Part shown: piece after piece, positions 1-22,674 of the stretch
Layout: every line of letters starts with the position of its first letter
Numbering within the stretch: the first letter of the stretch is position 1
Assembly (NCBI GenBank): GCA_013151635.1
Contig: JAADHV010000102.1
Location: 1-39,128 of the forward strand
DNA from: Deltaproteobacteria bacterium
GTDB lineage: Bacteria > Desulfobacterota > Desulfobacteria > Desulfobacterales > Desulfobacteraceae
Reading direction: 5' to 3'
DNA: 39,128 nt
Notes under the pieces: model-generated
What the model saw: the letters and a program-made list of their open reading frames with translations, nothing else
Databases searched by the model: none
What the model was told of the DNA's origin: nothing
Position numbers and translations under genes: made by a program

Positions 1-126
1 GGTTTTGACCCGGACTCCCTGATTGCCGAAGTTAATCTTGAAGTGGTGAAACAGGGAGCCTGGGAAGATATCTTCCTCAAATGCAGGGATAATATTGAAT
101 TGTTAAGTTTTGTGGGAGGAGGATAA
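1..126 (+). CDS. thiS: Sulfur carrier protein ThiS (C-terminal part)
   Basis: Frame 1 is open from the window edge and gives 41 residues ending in FVGGG before a TAA. The C-terminal Gly-Gly, preceded by a hydrophobic stretch (ELLSFVGGG), is the ThiS hallmark. That terminus is adenylated by ThiF and converted to a thiocarboxylate that donates sulfur to thiazole synthase. The upstream half lies outside the window. The stop is immediately followed by the thiG ATG, and the glycine codons themselves supply the thiG ribosome-binding site (GGGAGGAGG), so the two genes are closely coupled. Identity is very likely given the terminus and the thiG neighbour. Confidence 0.9.
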   Translation, partial: GFDPDSLIAEVNLEVVKQGAWEDIFLKCRDNIELLSFVGGG

Positions 127-909
127 ATGCAGGATATTAAAAACGATATGCTTACCCTTGGCGATGTCAACTTTCAAAGCCGCCTGTTCACCGGGACAGG
201 CAAATTTGCATCTAAAAAATTAATTGCGCCCATGCTTGAGGCGAGCGGTTCCGGCATGATAACGGTTGCTCTTCGCAGGATTGATCCGGGACAGGCCAAG
301 GAAAATATATTAAATTATATTCCGGGCTCAGTCACGCTTTTGCCCAATACATCAGGCGCCAGAACCGCATCCGAAGCAGTTCGCATTGCAAGGATCGCAA
401 GGGAAGGGGGGTGTGGAAAATTTATTAAGATTGAAGTGATCACGGATATGCAATACCTTTTGCCGGATAATCATGAAACTGTCAAGGCAACTGAAATCCT
501 GGCCAGGGACGGTTTTGTGGTCCTCCCCTACATGATGCCGGATATTACCGTGGCAAAGCAGCTCTATGATGCCGGGGCAGCAGCAGTAATGCCCCTTGGT
601 TCTCCCATAGGGTCCAACCGCGGGCTTGAAATGGAGCCTGTGATAAAAATGATCATTGAGGCAAGTAAAATTCCTGTGGTAGTGGATGCCGGTATCGGCA
701 GGCCGTCCCAGGCAGCCCAGGCCATGGAAATGGGTGCGGACGCAGTCCTTGTTAATACGGCAATCGCCACAAGCTGCGATCCTGTCCTTGCGGGCAGGGC
801 CTTTTCTCTGGCTGTGAAAGCCGGGCGGATGGCTTATCTTTCCCGGATGGTGGAAAAGAAAGTGTATGCCGAGGCTTCTTCACCCCTGACCGGATTTTTA
901 AGGAAGTAA
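127..909 (+). CDS. thiG: Thiazole synthase ThiG
   Basis: 260 residues, full length for the family. ThiG condenses 1-deoxy-D-xylulose 5-phosphate, dehydroglycine and ThiS thiocarboxylate into the thiazole phosphate of thiamine, in the cytoplasm. Visible motifs are an N-terminal FTGTGKF, the FIKIEVI strand whose Lys101 is the expected Schiff-base lysine, the phosphate-binding PLGSPIGSNRGL (156-167), and GIGRPSQAAQAMEMGADAVLVNTAIA near the C-terminus, all typical of this TIM barrel. The start follows the thiS stop directly. In the family it works with ThiH, whose gene begins 4 bases after this one ends. Confidence 0.97.
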   Translation: MQDIKNDMLTLGDVNFQSRLFTGTGKFASKKLIAPMLEASGSGMITVALRRIDPGQAKENILNYIPGSVTLLPNTSGARTASEAVRIARIAREGGCGKFIKIEVITDMQYLLPDNHETVKATEILARDGFVVLPYMMPDITVAKQLYDAGAAAVMPLGSPIGSNRGLEMEPVIKMIIEASKIPVVVDAGIGRPSQAAQAMEMGADAVLVNTAIATSCDPVLAGRAFSLAVKAGRMAYLSRMVEKKVYAEASSPLTGFLRK

Positions 910-913
910 CAAC

Positions 914-2020
914 ATGAGTTTTATGAATATTATAAAAAGGTTTGAATCCTTTGATTTTGAAGAATATTTCAAGTCAGTTACAAATTCTGATATTCAAAAG
1001 TCTTTGGCCCGGGATCATCTTGACCCATACGATCTTCTTAACCTTTTATCCGGAAAAGCACAGAAGTTTTTAGAACAGATGGCTCAAAAAGCACAAAAGA
1101 TAAGCCTTCAGTATTTTGGCAGGACCATAGTGCTTTACGCACCAATGTATATTTCCGACTATTGCACCAATTATTGTACCTATTGCGGGTTTAACAGTTT
1201 AACCAGGTTTAAGAGAACTAAATTATCGCTTGAAGAAATAGACAGGGAGGCAAAGGCGATTCATGATATGGGGATTTGTCACATCCTTGTCCTGACCGGG
1301 GAAGCGCCTGCCAAAACCCCCCTGTCCTATCTTGAAGATGCCGTGGGTGTTTTGAAAAAGTATTTTTCTTCCATTGCCCTTGAGATGTTTCCCATGGAGG
1401 AAGATGAGTATCGAACCTTAAAAAACGCAGGTGCTGATTCTTTGACTGTATACCAGGAAGTGTATGATCAAAAAATTTATAAAGATGTCCATCTTGCGGG
1501 AAGAAAAAAAGATTATCAATACCGGCTGTTAACCCCGGAGCGAGGGGCAAAAGCAGGGTTCAGGGCTGTCAATATCGGGACATTGTTCGGCCTTGGTGAA
1601 CCAAGATCAGAAGCTTTTTTGACCGCCATCCATGCAAGATACCTGGAACAGAAGTTTCCTGATGTGGAAGTATCGCTTTCCCTTCCCAGGATGACAAAGG
1701 CTAAAGGCGGGATTGAACCTAAGCATATTATTGATGACTCAAGCTTTGTCCGGTTCATGCTGGCCTGGCGGCTTTTTATGCCAAGGGTGGGTATTAATAT
1801 CTCCACAAGGGAATCGGAAAATTTCAGAGATAAGCTTATTTATCTTGGGGCAACAAAGTATTCGGCAGGTTCAAAAACCGATGTGGGGGGATATGCTTTA
1901 AAAGCAGATGACTCAACAGTCCAGTTTGAAGTGACAGATCAAAGAAGTGTGGAAAAAATAGCGCGGATGATCCGGCAGAAAGGTTATCAGCCGGTGTTTA
2001 AAGACTGGGAGATTATTTAA
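914..2020 (+). CDS. thiH: 2-iminoacetate synthase ThiH (radical SAM tyrosine lyase)
   Basis: 368 residues. ThiH cleaves tyrosine by radical SAM chemistry to p-cresol and dehydroglycine (2-iminoacetate), the glycine-derived input to ThiG. The CX3CX2C iron-sulfur motif is present as CTNYCTYCGF with Cys84, Cys88 and Cys91, after the usual helical N-terminus. Further on, LTGEAPAKTP and the NIGTLFGLGEPR stretch fit ThiH. Using ThiH rather than the oxygen-dependent glycine oxidase ThiO fits an anaerobe. The ATG sits 4 bases after thiG behind AAGGAAG. The stop shares one base with the thiF ATG (TAATG). Confidence 0.96.
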   Translation: MSFMNIIKRFESFDFEEYFKSVTNSDIQKSLARDHLDPYDLLNLLSGKAQKFLEQMAQKAQKISLQYFGRTIVLYAPMYISDYCTNYCTYCGFNSLTRFKRTKLSLEEIDREAKAIHDMGICHILVLTGEAPAKTPLSYLEDAVGVLKKYFSSIALEMFPMEEDEYRTLKNAGADSLTVYQEVYDQKIYKDVHLAGRKKDYQYRLLTPERGAKAGFRAVNIGTLFGLGEPRSEAFLTAIHARYLEQKFPDVEVSLSLPRMTKAKGGIEPKHIIDDSSFVRFMLAWRLFMPRVGINISTRESENFRDKLIYLGATKYSAGSKTDVGGYALKADDSTVQFEVTDQRSVEKIARMIRQKGYQPVFKDWEII

Positions 2021-12602: not shown

Positions 12603-13565
12603 TTAGAACTTTTTTTCCCTTGCGGAAAAGATTTCCGCCATCATGCACCTTGCACTGCCGCCGCCTGTTTTTTCAATGGTTGAAAGATCAAAACTTAAGA
12701 TTTCACCATATTGCTCAAGAAAACTTTTCTGGGCCCTGGTAAACCCCTGGCAGGCATTTTTGGACATCACAATAAAAGGGTCGTTTTTATTGTTTCTGAC
12801 TTCAAGAATATTGCCGCAGAAATGATTTTCCATCTGGCCCATTGTTATTTCCATCACATCAAAAGACTTTTTCAAGGTGGAAAGGACGTGATTCCTCTGT
12901 TTTTTATCAGTTATGCACTCAAGGCAGATAACAGCATATTTTTTTCCAAGGCTCATCATGACATTGGTGTGGTATACAGGTTTTCCCGAAGAGCTTTTTG
13001 TATCAAATAAAATTCCTTCAAGATAAAAGCGAAGGCGGATAAAATTGTCAAACTGGTCAGGGTGGCATCTTTCCGATCTTGCAGCATAAACCTTTTCGTC
13101 CACATGATCTATGATCAGGCTTCCTGTGCCTTCCAGGAACTTTTCAGGTTCATCAAGCCTTCCTACATTTATGCAGTTTCGAATTGTATATCCGTTTTTA
13201 TTGAGAAGTTTTTCTATTTCAAGGAGCCGTCTTTCAGCCTGCCTGTTTTTTGCCATCATAGGGTAGGTCAGGATAGTACCGTCATGTTCAGTAGAGAACC
13301 AGTTGTTAGGGAAAATGGCATCCGGGGTTGTGATATCACGGCTGATGGGAGGTTCGAGCACCAGAACGGTTACGCCCCTGCTTTTTAAGCCATCCACCAT
13401 TGCCTGGAATTCTTTACTGGCTTTTTTATTAATCAATTCCGGGCTCATGTCAGGTTTGTTCTGAAATTCATTGTCCACACCGGTTTCTTCATTATAACCA
13501 AAATCCCTGGGCCTGACCATGAGGATGGTATCTGCTGTTCTGGTGATTTTTATTTCCATGTCCAT
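12603..13565 (-). CDS. CtlX-like amidinohydrolase (citrulline-utilisation / arginine deiminase superfamily)
   Basis: 320 residues of the guanidine-modifying (pentein) fold. Family blocks are MVRPRDFGYNEETGVDNEFQ, TPDAIFPNNWFSTE, LEGTGSLIIDH, VYHTNVMMSLG (His199) and a C-terminal GGGSARCMMAEIF (Cys307), which supply the His and Cys of the pentein active site, with Asp82 or nearby acids binding the guanidinium. CtlX-type proteins were named from citrulline-utilisation loci; here no arginine or citrulline genes are adjacent, so the substrate is open. Two ATGs are possible (13565, 13559). A candidate promoter lies about 45 bases upstream. Confidence 0.85.
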   Translation of the reverse strand: MDMEIKITRTADTILMVRPRDFGYNEETGVDNEFQNKPDMSPELINKKASKEFQAMVDGLKSRGVTVLVLEPPISRDITTPDAIFPNNWFSTEHDGTILTYPMMAKNRQAERRLLEIEKLLNKNGYTIRNCINVGRLDEPEKFLEGTGSLIIDHVDEKVYAARSERCHPDQFDNFIRLRFYLEGILFDTKSSSGKPVYHTNVMMSLGKKYAVICLECITDKKQRNHVLSTLKKSFDVMEITMGQMENHFCGNILEVRNNKNDPFIVMSKNACQGFTRAQKSFLEQYGEILSFDLSTIEKTGGGSARCMMAEIFSAREKKF

Positions 13566-13769: not shown

Positions 13770-16700
13770 ATGGCTCATTCCACCAATAGCTCGACCAAGG
13801 TCCCCACGCTTAAATTATATCATGAATTAATGGCCAACAAGGTGGGTGAAATCCTGCTTGTATCCTGTCCTTATGATGCGTTTATCATGGAAGAGGAGGG
13901 CAGGCTTTCAACACGTATCATAAATGAATATAAAGGGCTTAACCTTTCAAAACCGCCCAGGCTTACATGGGTATCATCAGCATCAGAGGCATTTCAAATG
14001 CTTGAGAGCAAGAAATTTGACTTGATTATTGCCATGCCGAGCCTGGATGAAATGGATGTATATACCTTTGGAGCTAAAGTAAAACAAATATATTCGGATC
14101 TGCCCCTTTTTATGCTGCTGCATAATACCTGCGATGTTGACAAGTATATATGCGCGGACAATTCCACGGCCATTGACCGCATATATATCTGGGGAGGGAA
14201 TGCAGACCTTCTGCTGGCCATTATCAAAAATTTTGAAGATGAAATGAATGTTGCCTTTGACACTGAGAATGCAAGTGTCAGGGTGATTATCATGGTGGAG
14301 GATTCACCTTATCATTTTTCTTCCTTTCTGCCTGTGCTTTACAAGCAGATTGTAATGCAGACCCAGTCCGTCATTGATGAATCCATTAATGAAGAACACA
14401 GGTTGCTGAAAATGCGGGGCCGGCCCAAAGTACTGGTTGCCCATGATTATGAAGAAGCCATGGCTTTGTATGAGAAATATAAGCCATATCTTTTATCTGT
14501 TTTTTCAGATATGCGTTACCCGAAAGACGGTGTGGAGGATGAACAGGCAGGGTACAAGCTTTTGACAAAAATCAAAAAAGAAATACCTGACCTGCCGGTG
14601 CTTATACTTAGTACGGAAGAGCATAACAAGGAGAAAGTGGTTGATATTCCGGCTGTATTTATCAATAAGAATTCAAGTAATTTAAACGACAGGATTAAAA
14701 GTTTTTTTGTGTCTTATCTCGGATTCGGAGCCTTTGTTTTCAGGCTTCCCAACGGGGAGGAAATTGCAAGAGCAAGCGATTTAAGAGCCATTGAAAAACT
14801 TTTGTCTGAAATCCCGGATGAATCCATTGTTTATCATGCCATGAACAATGATTTTTCAAGATGGTTCATGGCCAGAAGTGAAATTGAATTCGCACTCAAA
14901 CTCAAGCCTTATAAAATCAGTGATTTTCCAGACCCGAGTAACCTGAAAAAATTTTTGATCGAGAGCATTCATGCAAGGAGAAAAGGCTCCAGGCAGGGCC
15001 AGATTATTGATTTTGATTCTGAAAAGTTTGATTCAGATACGGATTTCATGAAAATCGGGAACGGCTCCCTTGGCGGAAAAGCAAGGGGCCTTGCTTTTAT
15101 GGCATCCCAGATCAGGAAGGACACTTCTTTGCGTGATAAGTTCCCGGATGTGGATATCAGCATTCCACAGACTTTTGTGATTTCAACGGAAGGGTTTAAA
15201 ACCTTTATAGAGGAAAATGAACTTGCAGGGCTCCTTGAATCGGATGAGGAACTGGAAGACAGCCGGATTGTTGAGCGGTTTCTTCAAACCAGGTTTCCGG
15301 GCTGGATGAAAAAAAGCCTGAAAGCATATCTGGAGAGTGTCAGGTACCCCATTGCCGTCCGGTCATCATCCCTTTTTGAAGATGCTCATTATCAACCATT
15401 TGCAGGTCTCTATAATACCTATATGCTTCCCAATTCTCATCCCAACATTGAAAAACGGCTTGAAAGACTGATTGTGGCAATTAAGCTTGTCTATGCCTCA
15501 ACCTATCTTAAGGCTCCAAGGTCATATGCCAAATCCACCATGCACAGGACAGAGGATGAGGAAATGGCAGTGATTCTCCAGCAGTTAACAGGCATGAAGT
15601 ATAAGAATTATTTTTACCCTTCTATTTCAGGGGTGGCCCAGTCATATAATTTTTATCCTATTTCCCATTTAGAGGCGGAAGACGGCATTACCTATATTGC
15701 ATTGGGGCTTGGAAAGATTGTCATGGAAGGGGGAAAGACATTGAGGTTCTGTCCGAAATACCGCCAGTTTTTACCACAGTTTTCCATTGTGGATGATATT
15801 CTTGAAAATTCTCAGAAATATTTTTACGCATTAAAACTTGATGAAGCACCTGAAGATGAAAAATTTGTATTTGACTCAGCAAAAGACCCTACGCTTGCAA
15901 AGCTCGATTTAAGCGATGCAACCGACCATCCTGTTGTCAGGTTTTTGTCCTCCACCTTTTATGTCCAGGACAACAGGATCAGAGACTCTTTTTCCAATAA
16001 AGGATTCCCGGTGTTAACCTTTGCCAATATACTGAAATATAATTCTTTTCCCCTGGCCGGGCTCCTGGAAGAGGTCACGAAAATCGGCAGCAAATGGATG
16101 GGTTCCTCTGTCGAGGTGGAATTTGCAGTTAATTTGCCCGAAGATAAGACTAAAAAACCACAATTTTCTTTGCTTCAAATCAGGCCCATGGGGCGGTACA
16201 AGCAAAATCTCGGGGTAAAAATCGGAAAGGAAGAGATTAAAAAGGCGTTTTGTTATTCCTCGTTATCCCTTGGGAATGGGGAATATAAGGATATTTATGA
16301 TGTGGTTTATGTGGACCCTGAAACCTTTGACCCTGGAAAAACTATTGAAATTGTAGCGGAAATAAACAGGATAAACGCCTTATTTAATGAAAATAATCAA
16401 AAATATGTTTTGATCGGGCCAGGCCGCTGGGGATCGTCAGACAGGTGGCTTGGCATACCCGTGGTCTGGAATGATATTTCCAATGTGGGAGTAATGCTTG
16501 AAACCACCATAGAAAGCATTAAAGCAGATCCTTCCCAGGGATCCCACTTTTTCCAGAATATAACTTCCCTTGGTATCAGCTATATTACTGTATCAGATAA
16601 GGGGAATGATTTTATTGATTATGAATTTTTCAAATGCCGGGAATGTGAAAACACCACAACTTATCTAAAACATATAAAATTTGAAAACCCCATAAAAATT

Positions 16701-16796
16701 CTTGTGGACGGAAAAACATCCCAGGCCGTGCTTATGCCCTATGAAAAGGAAGACCAGGATGATATCATGGATGATATTCCCATCACTGATTCCTGA
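13770..16796 (+). CDS. Receiver-like plus PEP/pyruvate-binding domain protein (1008 aa)
   Basis: A multidomain signalling-type protein. Residues about 25-165 look like a degenerate receiver (ILLVSCPYDAFIMEEE, FDLIIAMPSLDEMD, with no clear phospho-acceptor). Residues about 215-325 form a second receiver with Asp247 in FSDMRYPKDG, LILST and a Lys in INKN, so it looks phosphorylatable. Residues about 428-800 match the PEP synthase/PPDK nucleotide-binding domain (GNGSLGGKARG from 431, IAVRSSSLFEDA around 529, MAVILQQL, LLQIRPMG). Residues about 880-975 are a distinct C-terminal block with IGPGRWGSSDRW. I find no phospho-histidine swivel domain and no PEP-binding barrel, so it cannot be a complete PEP synthase. 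It is followed 38 bases later by a REC-HDOD gene, probably in one transcript. ATG after AAAGG. Confidence 0.82.
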   Translation: MAHSTNSSTKVPTLKLYHELMANKVGEILLVSCPYDAFIMEEEGRLSTRIINEYKGLNLSKPPRLTWVSSASEAFQMLESKKFDLIIAMPSLDEMDVYTFGAKVKQIYSDLPLFMLLHNTCDVDKYICADNSTAIDRIYIWGGNADLLLAIIKNFEDEMNVAFDTENASVRVIIMVEDSPYHFSSFLPVLYKQIVMQTQSVIDESINEEHRLLKMRGRPKVLVAHDYEEAMALYEKYKPYLLSVFSDMRYPKDGVEDEQAGYKLLTKIKKEIPDLPVLILSTEEHNKEKVVDIPAVFINKNSSNLNDRIKSFFVSYLGFGAFVFRLPNGEEIARASDLRAIEKLLSEIPDESIVYHAMNNDFSRWFMARSEIEFALKLKPYKISDFPDPSNLKKFLIESIHARRKGSRQGQIIDFDSEKFDSDTDFMKIGNGSLGGKARGLAFMASQIRKDTSLRDKFPDVDISIPQTFVISTEGFKTFIEENELAGLLESDEELEDSRIVERFLQTRFPGWMKKSLKAYLESVRYPIAVRSSSLFEDAHYQPFAGLYNTYMLPNSHPNIEKRLERLIVAIKLVYASTYLKAPRSYAKSTMHRTEDEEMAVILQQLTGMKYKNYFYPSISGVAQSYNFYPISHLEAEDGITYIALGLGKIVMEGGKTLRFCPKYRQFLPQFSIVDDILENSQKYFYALKLDEAPEDEKFVFDSAKDPTLAKLDLSDATDHPVVRFLSSTFYVQDNRIRDSFSNKGFPVLTFANILKYNSFPLAGLLEEVTKIGSKWMGSSVEVEFAVNLPEDKTKKPQFSLLQIRPMGRYKQNLGVKIGKEEIKKAFCYSSLSLGNGEYKDIYDVVYVDPETFDPGKTIEIVAEINRINALFNENNQKYVLIGPGRWGSSDRWLGIPVVWNDISNVGVMLETTIESIKADPSQGSHFFQNITSLGISYITVSDKGNDFIDYEFFKCRECENTTTYLKHIKFENPIKILVDGKTSQAVLMPYEKEDQDDIMDDIPITDS

Positions 16797-16834: not shown

Positions 16835-18121
16835 ATGAAGATTTTAATTGTCGATGATGAAAATGTTTCCAGAAAAATATTACTGAAGAAAATGGAACTC
16901 ATTGGCGAATGCACGGCTGTTGATGACAGCCTTTATGCCCTGGAATTATTTAATAATGCAGTAAAGACCAAAAAACCGTTTAACCTTGTCACTCTGGATG
17001 TGTCCATGCCTAAAATGGATGGCAGAAAATTGCTGAGTACGATCCGTAAAACAGAAAGAAAAATGAAAACCCCCAGGGAAGACAGGGTTAAGATTATTAT
17101 GGTTACTTCAAGGATGAACGTATCCACCATAAAAGAGTGTATTAAGCTTGGGTGCAACGGGTATATTTCAAAGCCGGTTAACAAATATCAATTGCTTGAA
17201 AATTTAAGCCGGATGGGGTTGGCCCAGCCCCCGGAAATTCAAAAGGATGATAAAAAGACACATTCCAGGATTGTAGCAAAGATTATTAAACGGTTTTATA
17301 AAGGGCAAATCAAGCTGCCGGTATTGCCTAAAATTGTTGAAGAAGCAAAGTTGTTATTAGAGGGTCAGGAGCCGTCCATTGAGGATCTGGCAAAAATTAT
17401 TCAAAAGGATATTCTTATAACCAGTAAACTTATCGCCATTGCAAATTCCCCACTGTACAGGGGTGTTGATAATGCGGTAAATTTGAATGCAGGCCTGCTC
17501 AGGCTGGGGATGGAAGCTTCCCAGGGACTTATATCCACCATTGTTACAAAGGATCTTTTTAAATCGGATAATAAGGTATTGAATGGCCTGCTTGAAAAAC
17601 TCTGGATGCATTCGTTTGCCTGCGGCTGCCTGGGAAAGCGTATTGCACAGCAATTGGGTATGCCAAATGCCGAAAGCGTTTTTTTAATGGGTATTGTTCA
17701 TGATATAGGCAAGATGCTGCTGATAAAAGCAATTGTGGATATGAATCCCGAAGAAACCTTTGAAGATGGTGAGATGCTTGTTGCCATCCATGAAATCCAT
17801 ACGACATTTGGTGCTGCGGTTCTTAAAAAAATGAGGTTTTCAAAAGAATTTATCCATGTTGCGGAATTTCATCATTGGAATGATTTTTCCAAAGATGATG
17901 CAAAAGAGCTTCTTATTATTCATCTTTCAGATTACCTGGCAAATAAAATCGGGTTTGGTTTTTTTGATGCTTATCAAAACTATGATAAACCAGGATCAGA
18001 TTTCAAGAAAAACCTGGAAAATCTTAATTTTTTAAAGCAGTTAAATCTTGAAACAGGCAAAATCATGGAAATAGCAGATGAAATTAAGATACTTGTAAAG
18101 GATTCTGCCCATGCATTCTAA
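16835..18121 (+). CDS. Response regulator with HDOD output domain
   Basis: 428 residues. Residues 1-125 are a canonical receiver: acidic pocket VDDE, phospho-acceptor Asp55 in VTLDVSMPKMDG, MVTS and the conserved Lys in ISKPV. Residues about 155-360 are an HDOD domain (LPVLPKIVEEAKLLL, KDILITSKLIAIANSPLYRG, FLMGIVHDIGKMLL), a catalytically inactive relative of HD phosphohydrolases that usually acts as a scaffold in signalling. There is no DNA-binding domain, so output is probably through protein contacts. Strong AAGGGAG site before the ATG; it likely shares a transcript with the preceding receiver/PEP-binding gene. Confidence 0.92.
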   Translation: MKILIVDDENVSRKILLKKMELIGECTAVDDSLYALELFNNAVKTKKPFNLVTLDVSMPKMDGRKLLSTIRKTERKMKTPREDRVKIIMVTSRMNVSTIKECIKLGCNGYISKPVNKYQLLENLSRMGLAQPPEIQKDDKKTHSRIVAKIIKRFYKGQIKLPVLPKIVEEAKLLLEGQEPSIEDLAKIIQKDILITSKLIAIANSPLYRGVDNAVNLNAGLLRLGMEASQGLISTIVTKDLFKSDNKVLNGLLEKLWMHSFACGCLGKRIAQQLGMPNAESVFLMGIVHDIGKMLLIKAIVDMNPEETFEDGEMLVAIHEIHTTFGAAVLKKMRFSKEFIHVAEFHHWNDFSKDDAKELLIIHLSDYLANKIGFGFFDAYQNYDKPGSDFKKNLENLNFLKQLNLETGKIMEIADEIKILVKDSAHAF

Positions 18122-19676: not shown

Positions 19677-19703
19677 TCAATTAAAAATCACAGGTTGAAT
19701 ATT

Positions 19704-20936
19704 ATGAAGAAAGTCAATGTTTATAAGATCAAGCCTGGAATGATCCTTGGGCGGGATGTCAAAAACAGGGATGGACGGCTCCTGTTCTTAAAAGATCTGA
19801 AACTTGCACAAAAAGAAATCCGTACCCTTAAGATGTGGGGAATCCCGGAAATATTTATTCAAATTGAATCTCAAAAAGAGGAGCAAACAGAAACCGGCAG
19901 TAAATTAAAGGACAATAAGAGGACAAGGCAATTCCTTGACAACTGGTTCGGCAACAACGATCTTAAGAGTCCTGTAATTGAAATGCTCTATGATATTTGC
20001 CTTTCCAGGTTAAAAAATAATCAATTCGAGATTCCTTCTTTTTTTGAAAAAAAAGACGATCCAGCAAAATTGCAGCCCGGAAAAAAGATTAAACCTGTTA
20101 AAAATATTCAACGTCTGCTGGAAGACAAGCTAAAACTCCCGTCACTTCCGACAATTTTTTCTGAAATCAATGAAGCTGTTCAAAGTCCAAAATGCTCAGG
20201 CAAGGATATCGCTGCTATCGTCAGCAAAGATACAAGCTTGAGCGCAACGCTTTTAAAAATTGTCAACAGTGCCTATTACGGGCTGGGTGAAAAAGTGGAG
20301 TCCTTGAATTATGCAGCCATGGCACTTGGAACAAGGCAGGTAAGCTCTCTTGCCCTTGGCATTACGGTAATTAATTATTTTAAGGGGATATCAGACCAGC
20401 GTATTAATATGCAGTCTTTCTGGCGCCACAGTATTGCATGCGGGATTGCTGCGAAAACTCTTGCAGCACATGTGAAGGGTGCTGTGCCGGACCGGGTGTT
20501 TATAGGCGGACTGCTCCATGATATAGGCCGCCTGATTTTTTTAAATATCTATCCTGCCGAGTTTAACGCCTTGTTGAACAAGTCTCAAATACTTGGTGCG
20601 TTTTTATACCAGGTTGAACCCGAATGCTTTGGAATGGACCATGCCCGGTTTGGAAGTCTTCTTGCAAAAACCTGGAATTTTTCCGGCAAGATATCCAGGC
20701 TTATACATCACCACCATGATGATTTTAAAAAAGAGCCGCCCAGGGAAGTGGCAATTGTGTATTTTGCGAATTGGCTGGTAAATGCCATCGGGATAGGCTC
20801 CTCCGGTGAAAATGGACTGCCGCCAATGAATATCAACGCCTGGAAAGTTTTAGACATGCCGGAAACCATGCTGGAATCCATTGTTAAACAGATTGACCGG
20901 CAAATTGTGGAAGCAGTAAAATTTTTTTATGAATAA
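19704..20936 (+). CDS. HDOD domain protein
   Basis: 410 residues from the ATG at 19704 (a TTG at 19695 would add three). The N-terminal 60 residues (VNVYKIKPGMILGRDVKNRDGRLLFLKD) resemble the small beta-rich domain often found before HD or HD-GYP modules. A linker follows, then an HDOD domain at about 140-350: LPSLPTIFSEINEAVQ, IVSKDTSLSATLLKIVNSAYYG, ALGTRQVSSLALG, FWRHSIACGIAAKTLA, FIGGLLHDIGRLIFLN. HDOD proteins serve as adaptors in bacterial sensory networks. It overlaps the following histidine kinase gene by eight bases, so the two are translated together and likely act in one pathway. Confidence 0.9.
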   Translation: MKKVNVYKIKPGMILGRDVKNRDGRLLFLKDLKLAQKEIRTLKMWGIPEIFIQIESQKEEQTETGSKLKDNKRTRQFLDNWFGNNDLKSPVIEMLYDICLSRLKNNQFEIPSFFEKKDDPAKLQPGKKIKPVKNIQRLLEDKLKLPSLPTIFSEINEAVQSPKCSGKDIAAIVSKDTSLSATLLKIVNSAYYGLGEKVESLNYAAMALGTRQVSSLALGITVINYFKGISDQRINMQSFWRHSIACGIAAKTLAAHVKGAVPDRVFIGGLLHDIGRLIFLNIYPAEFNALLNKSQILGAFLYQVEPECFGMDHARFGSLLAKTWNFSGKISRLIHHHHDDFKKEPPREVAIVYFANWLVNAIGIGSSGENGLPPMNINAWKVLDMPETMLESIVKQIDRQIVEAVKFFYE

Positions 20937-22674
20937 ACTAAATGAAATAGATATGGAAAAGAGGTTGGCCTACCTGGAGCAGGCCAATCTTTTTAAGATG
21001 ATGGCCCTGGACCTGACAAAAGAATTGGGAGAGTTCAATTCCAGTATCAACAGGCTTGAGAATCCTGGCATTGTTTTTGAAAAATGCAATGCCAGGGCAA
21101 GGCAGATCGTCGGGTTTAAACAAATAGCCTTTTTCCTCGTGGATGAAGACAATTCTGATTTTCATCTCACAAGATGCTATCCTGAAACAGGTAAAGACAA
21201 GATCGAGAAAGAAATTGATGTGTTGATAGAAGACGGGACTTTTTCACGGGCAGTACTTGAAAAGAAACCTGTCACAGCCTATTCAAAGGATTTCAACCAT
21301 CAATTGCTGCTCCATGTGCTGGCAACGGTTTCCCGGGTCCGGGGTATGTTTGCGGGTGTATTGGAGAAAAAGTCAAAACATATACCGGAAGCCTCTTTTG
21401 AGCTATTATCCATATTGATGGCACATTGTGCAAATACTTTGGAAAGCTTTGAGTTATATTACCAGCTTAGAACTTCAAACAGGTGCCTTAAAGACAAGGT
21501 AAACGAGCTTGCTGTTTCAGAATCCTGCCTGAAACGCGAAATAAAGGAGCACAGGAAAACCGAGACCGCTTTAAAATCAAGTGAGAAACTCTATAGACTG
21601 CTTACCGAAACTGCCAGTGAAATCATCATCATGGTTTCAGATAATGGTCAAATCCTGTATTTGAATCAATCTGCTCAAAAGGCCTGCGGATATTCGAAAA
21701 AGGCTGTGGAAGCCATGAGTATTAAAGATTTGATTGATGATTTTGACAATATTATGGCAGACCATGCCCACAGTTATTCAAATACCCACGATGCAAAGCT
21801 TTTATCCAGATGCGGGGATAAAATTTCAATGGAAATAAACATAGAGTCCATTCCAAATAAAGGCGCGCCACCCGGGATTTTAATTGTGGGCAGGGACATT
21901 TCAGAAAGGCTGAACTCGGAAAAGGAAAAAAAATTCCTGGAAGAAAAACTGTGGCAGTCCCAGAAAATGGAATCCATTGGAATACTGGCAGGCGGCATTG
22001 CCCATGATTTTAATAATATTTTAAGTGTTATTGTCAATTATTCTTCTTTGTCACTTTCCTGCCTGCCCAAAGAAAGCCCGGTTTACAGCCATTTGGAAAA
22101 AGTGCAGACAGCCTCGAACAGAGCGGTTGACCTGGCAAGAAAACTTTATACCATTGGCAGGAAAGACGATCACAAGAAACATATCATCGACATGGTATCC
22201 ACAATCAATGAAACCATTGATTTATTAAGATCATCCCTGGGAAAAGGCATTGAGATCAAAACCGGTTTTGAAAAGACCGGGATGCATGTTTTAGCTGAAG
22301 AAACAAGAATCCAGCAGATAATCATGAACCTTATAACAAATGCCGCCCATGCAATTGCTGATAGAAAAGGGATCATTACAGTTTGCGCTTCTAAAACCCG
22401 TGTTCTTGCGGAAAAACCTATTTCATCCCTGGACCTGGCACCTGGAAAATATATTGAGCTTTGTATTTCAGATAATGGCCCTGGCATTGATACCAATATT
22501 TTGCAACACGTGTTTGAACCTTATTTTTCAACAAAAAAAGGCAAAGATAATTCAGGCCTTGGCCTTGCCGTTGTCCACGGGATTGTTAAAAATTATCATG
22601 GAGCCATTGATATCAGAACCAAAATGGGACAAGGCACATCCTTTCATATTTACCTGCCGGAAGCCTTATTTTGA
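20929..22674 (+). CDS. GAF-PAS sensor histidine kinase
   Basis: 581 residues with no membrane helix, so a cytoplasmic sensor. Residues about 20-180 form a GAF-like module, then a coiled linker, then a PAS domain (about 220-330; LLTETASEIIIMVSDNGQILYLNQSA). The dimerisation helix carries the phospho-acceptor His359 in GGIAHDFNNILSVI. The ATPase domain has QIIMNLITNAAHAI (N box), ISDNGPGID (G1) and DNSGLGLAVVHGIV (G2). Many kinases of this type end in a receiver, but this one stops after the ATPase domain, so it needs a partner; the REC-HDOD gene 3 kb away is a candidate. The start overlaps the HDOD gene by eight bases. Confidence 0.93.
   Translation: MNKLNEIDMEKRLAYLEQANLFKMMALDLTKELGEFNSSINRLENPGIVFEKCNARARQIVGFKQIAFFLVDEDNSDFHLTRCYPETGKDKIEKEIDVLIEDGTFSRAVLEKKPVTAYSKDFNHQLLLHVLATVSRVRGMFAGVLEKKSKHIPEASFELLSILMAHCANTLESFELYYQLRTSNRCLKDKVNELAVSESCLKREIKEHRKTETALKSSEKLYRLLTETASEIIIMVSDNGQILYLNQSAQKACGYSKKAVEAMSIKDLIDDFDNIMADHAHSYSNTHDAKLLSRCGDKISMEINIESIPNKGAPPGILIVGRDISERLNSEKEKKFLEEKLWQSQKMESIGILAGGIAHDFNNILSVIVNYSSLSLSCLPKESPVYSHLEKVQTASNRAVDLARKLYTIGRKDDHKKHIIDMVSTINETIDLLRSSLGKGIEIKTGFEKTGMHVLAEETRIQQIIMNLITNAAHAIADRKGIITVCASKTRVLAEKPISSLDLAPGKYIELCISDNGPGIDTNILQHVFEPYFSTKKGKDNSGLGLAVVHGIVKNYHGAIDIRTKMGQGTSFHIYLPEALF

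Follow-up and report, generated by a model that had tools for sequence, protein, structure and literature searches.

The 1008-aa protein encoded in the window, by which we mean the whole 39,128-nucleotide stretch of DNA analysed here, belongs to a family whose genes are accompanied by that for glutamate dehydrogenase (GDH) more often than by any other. The family has a predicted shared core in which a PPDK_N ATP-binding domain is followed by a C-terminal domain that carries GPGRWG and SxG[ST]HFF motifs and has no recognised relative, and the window's protein contains both PPDK_N and a domain with the two motifs. Because many relatives, from several phyla, adjoin a GDH gene, the family probably has a part in regulating the cell's handling of ammonium and glutamate. 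An earlier first-pass annotation of this DNA overlooked this conserved partner. Carbon and nitrogen metabolism meet at GDH, and the genomic link makes a candidate regulator, open to testing, of a protein annotated just as 'PEP/pyruvate-binding domain-containing'. The link extends over several phyla and takes in gut Bacteroidales that can be cultured (Parabacteroides distasonis).

The features of the gene are collected in Table 1. The open reading frame starts with ATG, and a match at 84-89% identity is present in 17 of the 25 same-genus genomes searched (two of the 17 partial), so the protein is more than a chance reading frame; the source genome has one copy of the family. AlphaFold2, supplied with 85 sequences, modelled the whole protein at pLDDT 87.8 and pTM 0.82.

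Table 1. Features of the 1008-aa gene and its downstream neighbour, in positions of the window.
Feature	Position	Residues	Strand	Evidence
1008-aa protein, REC-REC-DUF5752-like-PPDK_N-C-terminal domain	13770..16796		+	ORF, Pfam, AlphaFold2
REC1, receiver fold without phospho-Asp	13842..14234	~25-155	+	alignment, hhalign, model, Foldseek
REC2, complete receiver active site	14277..14717	~170-316	+	Pfam, alignment, model
D247 codon, predicted phospho-acceptor of REC2	14508..14510		+	alignment
DUF5752-like middle domain with conserved H356	14757..14999	~330-410	+	Pfam sub-threshold
PPDK_N ATP-binding domain with K437, R531, E784, Q803	15045..16217	~426-816	+	Pfam, hhalign, alignment
C-terminal domain, without Pfam match or convincing fold match	16227..16739	~820-990	+	model, Foldseek, hhalign
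GPGRWG motif	16416..16433	883-888	+	alignment
H926 codon in SQGSHFF	16545..16547		+	alignment, model
REC-HDOD gene, local neighbour, 38 bases downstream	16835..18121		+	Pfam, locus counts

The first-pass annotation had described two receiver-like domains of which the second alone is intact, and residue conservation, hhalign and fold matches all agree with it. The Pfam Response_reg model matches the whole protein at E 1.2e-7, with its best stretch at residues 211-289. At the usual phospho-site of REC1, placed by motif at residue 89, the 90 rows listed of the 92-row alignment have M (68), T (13), F (3), N (3), L (2) or V (1), and none of these 90 has Asp. REC2 passes a response-regulator test with its acidic pair E177/D178 together with D247, S281 and K300; D178 is found in 88 of 92 rows (N in four), D247 and K300 each in 91 with one gap, and S281 in 87 (T in four, A in one), while a second set of relatives, found by protein search, keeps all four residues in 50 of 50 cases. 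A comparison of the REC1 profile with the REC2 profile in hhalign gave 95.7%. The top Foldseek matches to the whole model are tandem-REC chains of PleD (E 3e-8, TM-score about 0.28 of the target, 18 A rmsd), and single receivers fit it better, with TM-scores of up to 0.78. The likeness to PleD-type response regulators thus lies in the REC1-REC2 tandem, which brings them to the top of the Foldseek matches at a low TM-score, whereas those proteins carry GGDEF where the 1008-aa protein has PPDK_N and the C-terminal domain.

The middle of the protein matches DUF5752 below threshold at residues 334-409 (E 0.0024); the same model exceeds the Pfam cut-off in three of nine relatives scanned, and H356 is found in 91 of 92 rows, with one gap. 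The presence of a PPDK/PEP-synthase N-domain, also claimed previously, is confirmed by a match to Pfam PPDK_N (PF01326) at residues 433-816 with E 3.3e-35. In addition, hhalign relates the family's PPDK_N to that of a PF00391-bearing protein (L057) at 99% over 196 columns, which make up the first half of the domain. As no PEP synthase is among the best 50 of 1588 Foldseek matches to the whole model, the assignment rests on sequence. K437, R531, E784 and Q803 are kept in 50/50 relatives and 24/24 sister proteins, sets that come from protein or profile search; the loci of the 92-row alignment were found in part via the patterns GGK[AG]RGLAF and SQG[ST]HFF[HQ], and the conservation of K437 and H926 in those rows is partly by construction. 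The PPDK_N ATP domain is shared with PEP synthase, PPDK and rifampicin phosphotransferase, but PEP synthase and PPDK continue into a PF00391 domain and a PEP barrel, neither of which is in the 1008-aa protein. It reaches 41 bits on TIGR01418, whose cut-off is 740, and falls below the curated cut-offs of the PigC model (53 versus 1300 bits) and the rph model (15 versus 999 bits).

The separate C-terminal block noticed in the first-pass annotation is borne out as the GPGRWG domain, which yields a confident model of its own (pLDDT 90.8, pTM 0.87). A Foldseek search with this domain against the PDB returned nothing below E 0.001, and TM-scores are at most 0.32 among the best 50 of 493 matches. R886 and W887 are invariant in the 50 relatives and 24 sisters and occur in 91 of 92 rows. 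H926 is equally invariant in the 50 relatives from protein search and the 24 sisters, and is found in 90 rows of the 92-row set, which is biased here, its loci having been found partly through the H926 motif. In the AlphaFold2 model H926 opens a helix (926-933), and it may serve as a phosphoryl carrier or catalytic residue.

Scanning the genome collection for sequence patterns yielded at least 590 confirmed relatives, of which 80 were kept. The kept loci come from Thermodesulfobacteriota, Myxococcota, Bacteroidota, Chlorobiota, Ignavibacteriota, Acidobacteriota and Gemmatimonadota, among others, and many are from metagenome-assembled genomes. When 297 genomes of the source phylum were searched with a profile, 80 of them yielded family loci, 86 in all, the majority belonging to a receiver-less sister subfamily; two candidates per genome were scored in this search, and some 'family-negative' genomes may hide members. 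Seven candidates per genome were scored in a separate draw of Bacteroidota. All of the 24 sister proteins keep the core residues K437, R531, E784, Q803, R886, W887 and H926.

What is attached to the core varies, judging by predicted domains: REC-REC-DUF5752, an N-terminal extension, a non-REC N-terminus, a C-terminal nucleotidyltransferase, or nothing. The N-terminal extension, which has no Pfam match, is common to ten aligned members, nearly all Bacteroidota (L128, L131, L099, L103, L118 and others); it is doubled in L131 and L099, and in L118 it is preceded by a PAS domain. The N-terminus of the sister subfamily had no significant Pfam match in six members, and a REC origin for it was rejected, as hhalign gave less than 1% to REC1, REC2 and the linker; going by its motif, it looks KaiC-like by eye. 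Some Bacteroidota have core-only frames of 581-591 aa beside family members and near GDH (L220:8610-10367, L221:4605-6377, L222:4989-6731). NTP_transf_2 is matched above cut-off C-terminal to the core in L220:5434-8616 and L176:5419-8640, at loci with GDH genes, and these nucleotidyltransferase-bearing sisters recall GlnD/GlnE-type control. In L220, two GDH genes adjoin three family genes in tandem.

Clustering of the neighbours makes GDH the commonest neighbour family, at 42 of 83 loci, with the next at 8. Nine GDH-like neighbours were scanned, and GDH models were best in all nine, above the curated cut-off in seven and below it in two (L175 and L187). A GDH-like ORF lies within 1 kb in 65 of the 110 scorable rows among L026-L138 (45 without, a further 15 not scorable) and in 12 of 20 rows of the sister subfamily (L171-L190). 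The 1-kb counts take in the window as L001 and omit L201-L210 as repeats; the tally of the whole table with those rows is 88 with GDH, 86 without and 16 not scorable (n=190). Two linked rows (L116 and L137) were counted on stop-to-stop frames, and this reading is the source of overlaps with the GDH frame that we rejected as fusions; no fusion to a GDH-family protein was seen. The linkage spans several phyla and two subfamilies with different N-termini. GDH lies downstream on the same strand in 42 cases, upstream on the same strand in 25, downstream on the opposite strand in 10 and upstream on the opposite strand in 8, and the tree requires 32-36 gains or losses of linkage, at least 26 of them on well-supported branches (the tree omits the L201-L210 repeats, L001, L025, L080, L137_11914 and L200). 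Because the arrangements differ and so many changes are needed, the linkage is not one inherited block.

Genome content follows the same pattern. Among the matches listed for the 297-genome draw, a PF02812 dehydrogenase, a class that also covers Leu/Val/Phe dehydrogenases, is found in 80 of 80 family genomes versus 96 of 217 others, and lies within 5 kb at 56 of the 86 family loci. Within the same GTDB families the figures are 74/74 versus 28/51, and none of 20,000 permutations was as high; this permutation takes in 125 genomes from 26 hand-compiled GTDB families, omits six family genomes alone in theirs, and controls for GTDB family only, the species being related. In the Bacteroidota draw, GDH is within 5 kb at 28 of 37 loci and in 17 of 20 genomes, among the matches listed; as GDH is nearly universal there (108 of 118 genomes, again among the matches listed), only its position counts. 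A control around PF00391-bearing proteins found a GDH-like ORF in 0 of 18 loci with flanks of up to ~7 kb. A first control, with GDH in 0 of 30 PF00391 loci, is weak, since those loci reach only ~1.5 kb past the domain. Genes resembling 2-oxoacid:ferredoxin oxidoreductase neighbour family genes in 6 of 83 loci (L074, L079, L084, L103, L127, L130), and the one beta subunit scanned had that family as its best match, at 234 bits, under the cut-off of 261.9. In four of 83 loci (L065, L066, L108, L135) a neighbour resembles a glutamate synthase domain by eye.

We suggest, at what we regard as even chances, that the family consists of ATP-using regulators of GDH or of the glutamate/2-oxoglutarate node that are gated by their attached parts. 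In the window's protein, the ATP domain would be switched when Asp247 of REC2 is phosphorylated, whereupon a phosphoryl group would move from the core, perhaps via His926, to a target whose activity would change as a result. In the window's clade, going by the family at large, the protein would either act in trans on GDH or have a new target. A more specific form of the proposal is speculative: the PPDK_N core would phosphorylate His926, which would hand the phosphoryl group to GDH, making the family a multi-phylum class of reversible GDH modifiers, with a nucleotidyl group transferred in members that have the extra transferase and with receiver, PAS or other inputs. If so, the family's relation to GDH would parallel that of the GlnD/GlnE system to glutamine synthetase. 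GDH of Bacteroides fragilis was reportedly found in 1987 to be reversibly inactivated in vivo, and, if that report holds, the family is a candidate agent of this inactivation.

Other accounts of the core are conceivable, and one turns on whether the C-terminal domain is PF00391 in diverged form, which would make the protein a cut-down PEP-synthase-like enzyme. Such a swivelling phospho-His domain was suggested by eye, since GSHFFQNITSLGI resembles the swivel motif seen in the sequences compared and the conserved H926 sits at the start of a helix. Neither hhalign nor Foldseek bore it out: the profile comparison of residues 815-1000 with 22 PF00391-type sequences, a search for the hidden phospho-His domain that the first-pass annotation had named as evidence against itself, gave a probability of at most 1.2%, and no PF00391-type domain is among the best 50 of 493 fold matches, the best of which has E 0.011. 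Pfam finds neither PF00391 nor the PEP/pyruvate barrel in the 1008-aa protein, whose chain ends after the C-terminal domain, nor PF00391 in the relatives scanned, and the seven PF00391 matches of the source genome are all on other contigs. In their canonical form, the swivelling His domain and catalytic barrel are therefore missing, as had been claimed, and a disguised swivel domain is very improbable, although H926 of the unmatched C-terminal domain could take over such a role. The lack of a canonical phospho-His or acceptor domain by Pfam, hhalign and the fold matches listed, the varied attachments and the linkage to GDH would also suit a non-catalytic sensor, in which PPDK_N reads out the energy state simply by binding ATP or ADP, GDH is controlled by binding and REC2 provides a second input. 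We consider such a sensor unlikely, as the seven core residues kept throughout the relatives and sisters look catalytic. It is improbable, too, that the protein is itself an enzyme of glutamate metabolism, such as an ATP-dependent ligase or small-molecule kinase, rather than a regulator. PPDK_N does serve small-molecule enzymes, for example rifampicin phosphotransferase and PigC (to whose models the matches are weak), and a pathway would fit both the GDH linkage and the oxidoreductase-like genes at 6 of 83 loci; yet fusion to receivers, PAS or nucleotidyltransferase domains fits regulation better, as do family genes in tandem.

The window's own clade raises the further possibility that its members have been re-purposed away from GDH, to work together with the REC-HDOD gene in a local pathway or on a different target, a reading that overlaps the others and that we hold to be possible, if doubtful. 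GDH is within 1 kb at none of the 24 clade loci, window included, and within 6 kb in none of five clade genomes (L203-L207); the two PF02812 matches of the source genome are on other contigs. Because its own clade is unlinked, we infer the target of the window-type protein. Where genomes have two or more full-type copies, GDH is beside one copy in five of eight (G003, G007, G027, G032 and G038); G022, G026 and G042 have multiple full-type copies with none beside GDH, G022 being cut by a contig end. Four of these genomes (G003, G007, G027 and G032) thus keep a second, GDH-linked copy, as re-purposing would have it, and in G003, G007 and G032 the linked copy is the one less similar to the window's. 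From the unlinked clade and these three less window-like linked copies, the window type looks like a lineage apart from the gdh neighbourhood. Of 24 close loci, six, the window among them, have the REC-HDOD gene immediately downstream, which favours a local pathway, but this adjacency is a minority trait even in close relatives, and the core and REC2 residues are unchanged. The gene follows none of 25 further loci and just one of the 71 named loci whose flanks are long enough, and on these locus counts REC-HDOD was rejected as a conserved partner. The first-pass interpretation is therefore supported where it joins a nucleotide-domain core, lacking the canonical His and PEP domains, to a complete receiver, and lacks support for coupling to the REC-HDOD gene.

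A REC-PPDK architecture is already in print (PMC5847659), and receivers lacking the Asp have been described with pyruvate phosphate dikinase effector domains (PMC4395418). These proteins apparently have the same architecture as the window's, and its Asp-less REC1 fits the latter account, but the passages describing them give no function, C-terminal domain or GDH link. The first-pass remark that such a system is uncharacterised thus holds for function, in the literature searched, and not for architecture, which the relevant parts of both papers (PMC5847659, PMC4395418) already note. Searches of open-licence papers for any that link GDH to such an architecture found nothing relevant. DVU0246 of the Desulfovibrio nitrate cluster is likewise a PPDK-type protein by a single-REC gene in a sulfate reducer, but the account available annotates it with a mobile His domain (PMC4001038); the similar-length L057 carries PF00391, and on these grounds DVU0246 was rejected as a member of the family. 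BT1971, tried as a Bacteroides homologue, was likewise rejected, as passages in two papers give it as a catalase.

Further along the window, at 19695-22674, a second HDOD gene and a gene for a PAS/GAF histidine kinase share an 8-base overlap, and this kinase may be one that acts on the nearby receivers. On the other side, divergent from the 1008-aa gene, a DDAH-like gene (PF19420, E 1.6e-87) lies at 12603-13565 on the minus strand; it is present in 4 of 25 close loci, window included, with flanks of ~1.5 kb or less.
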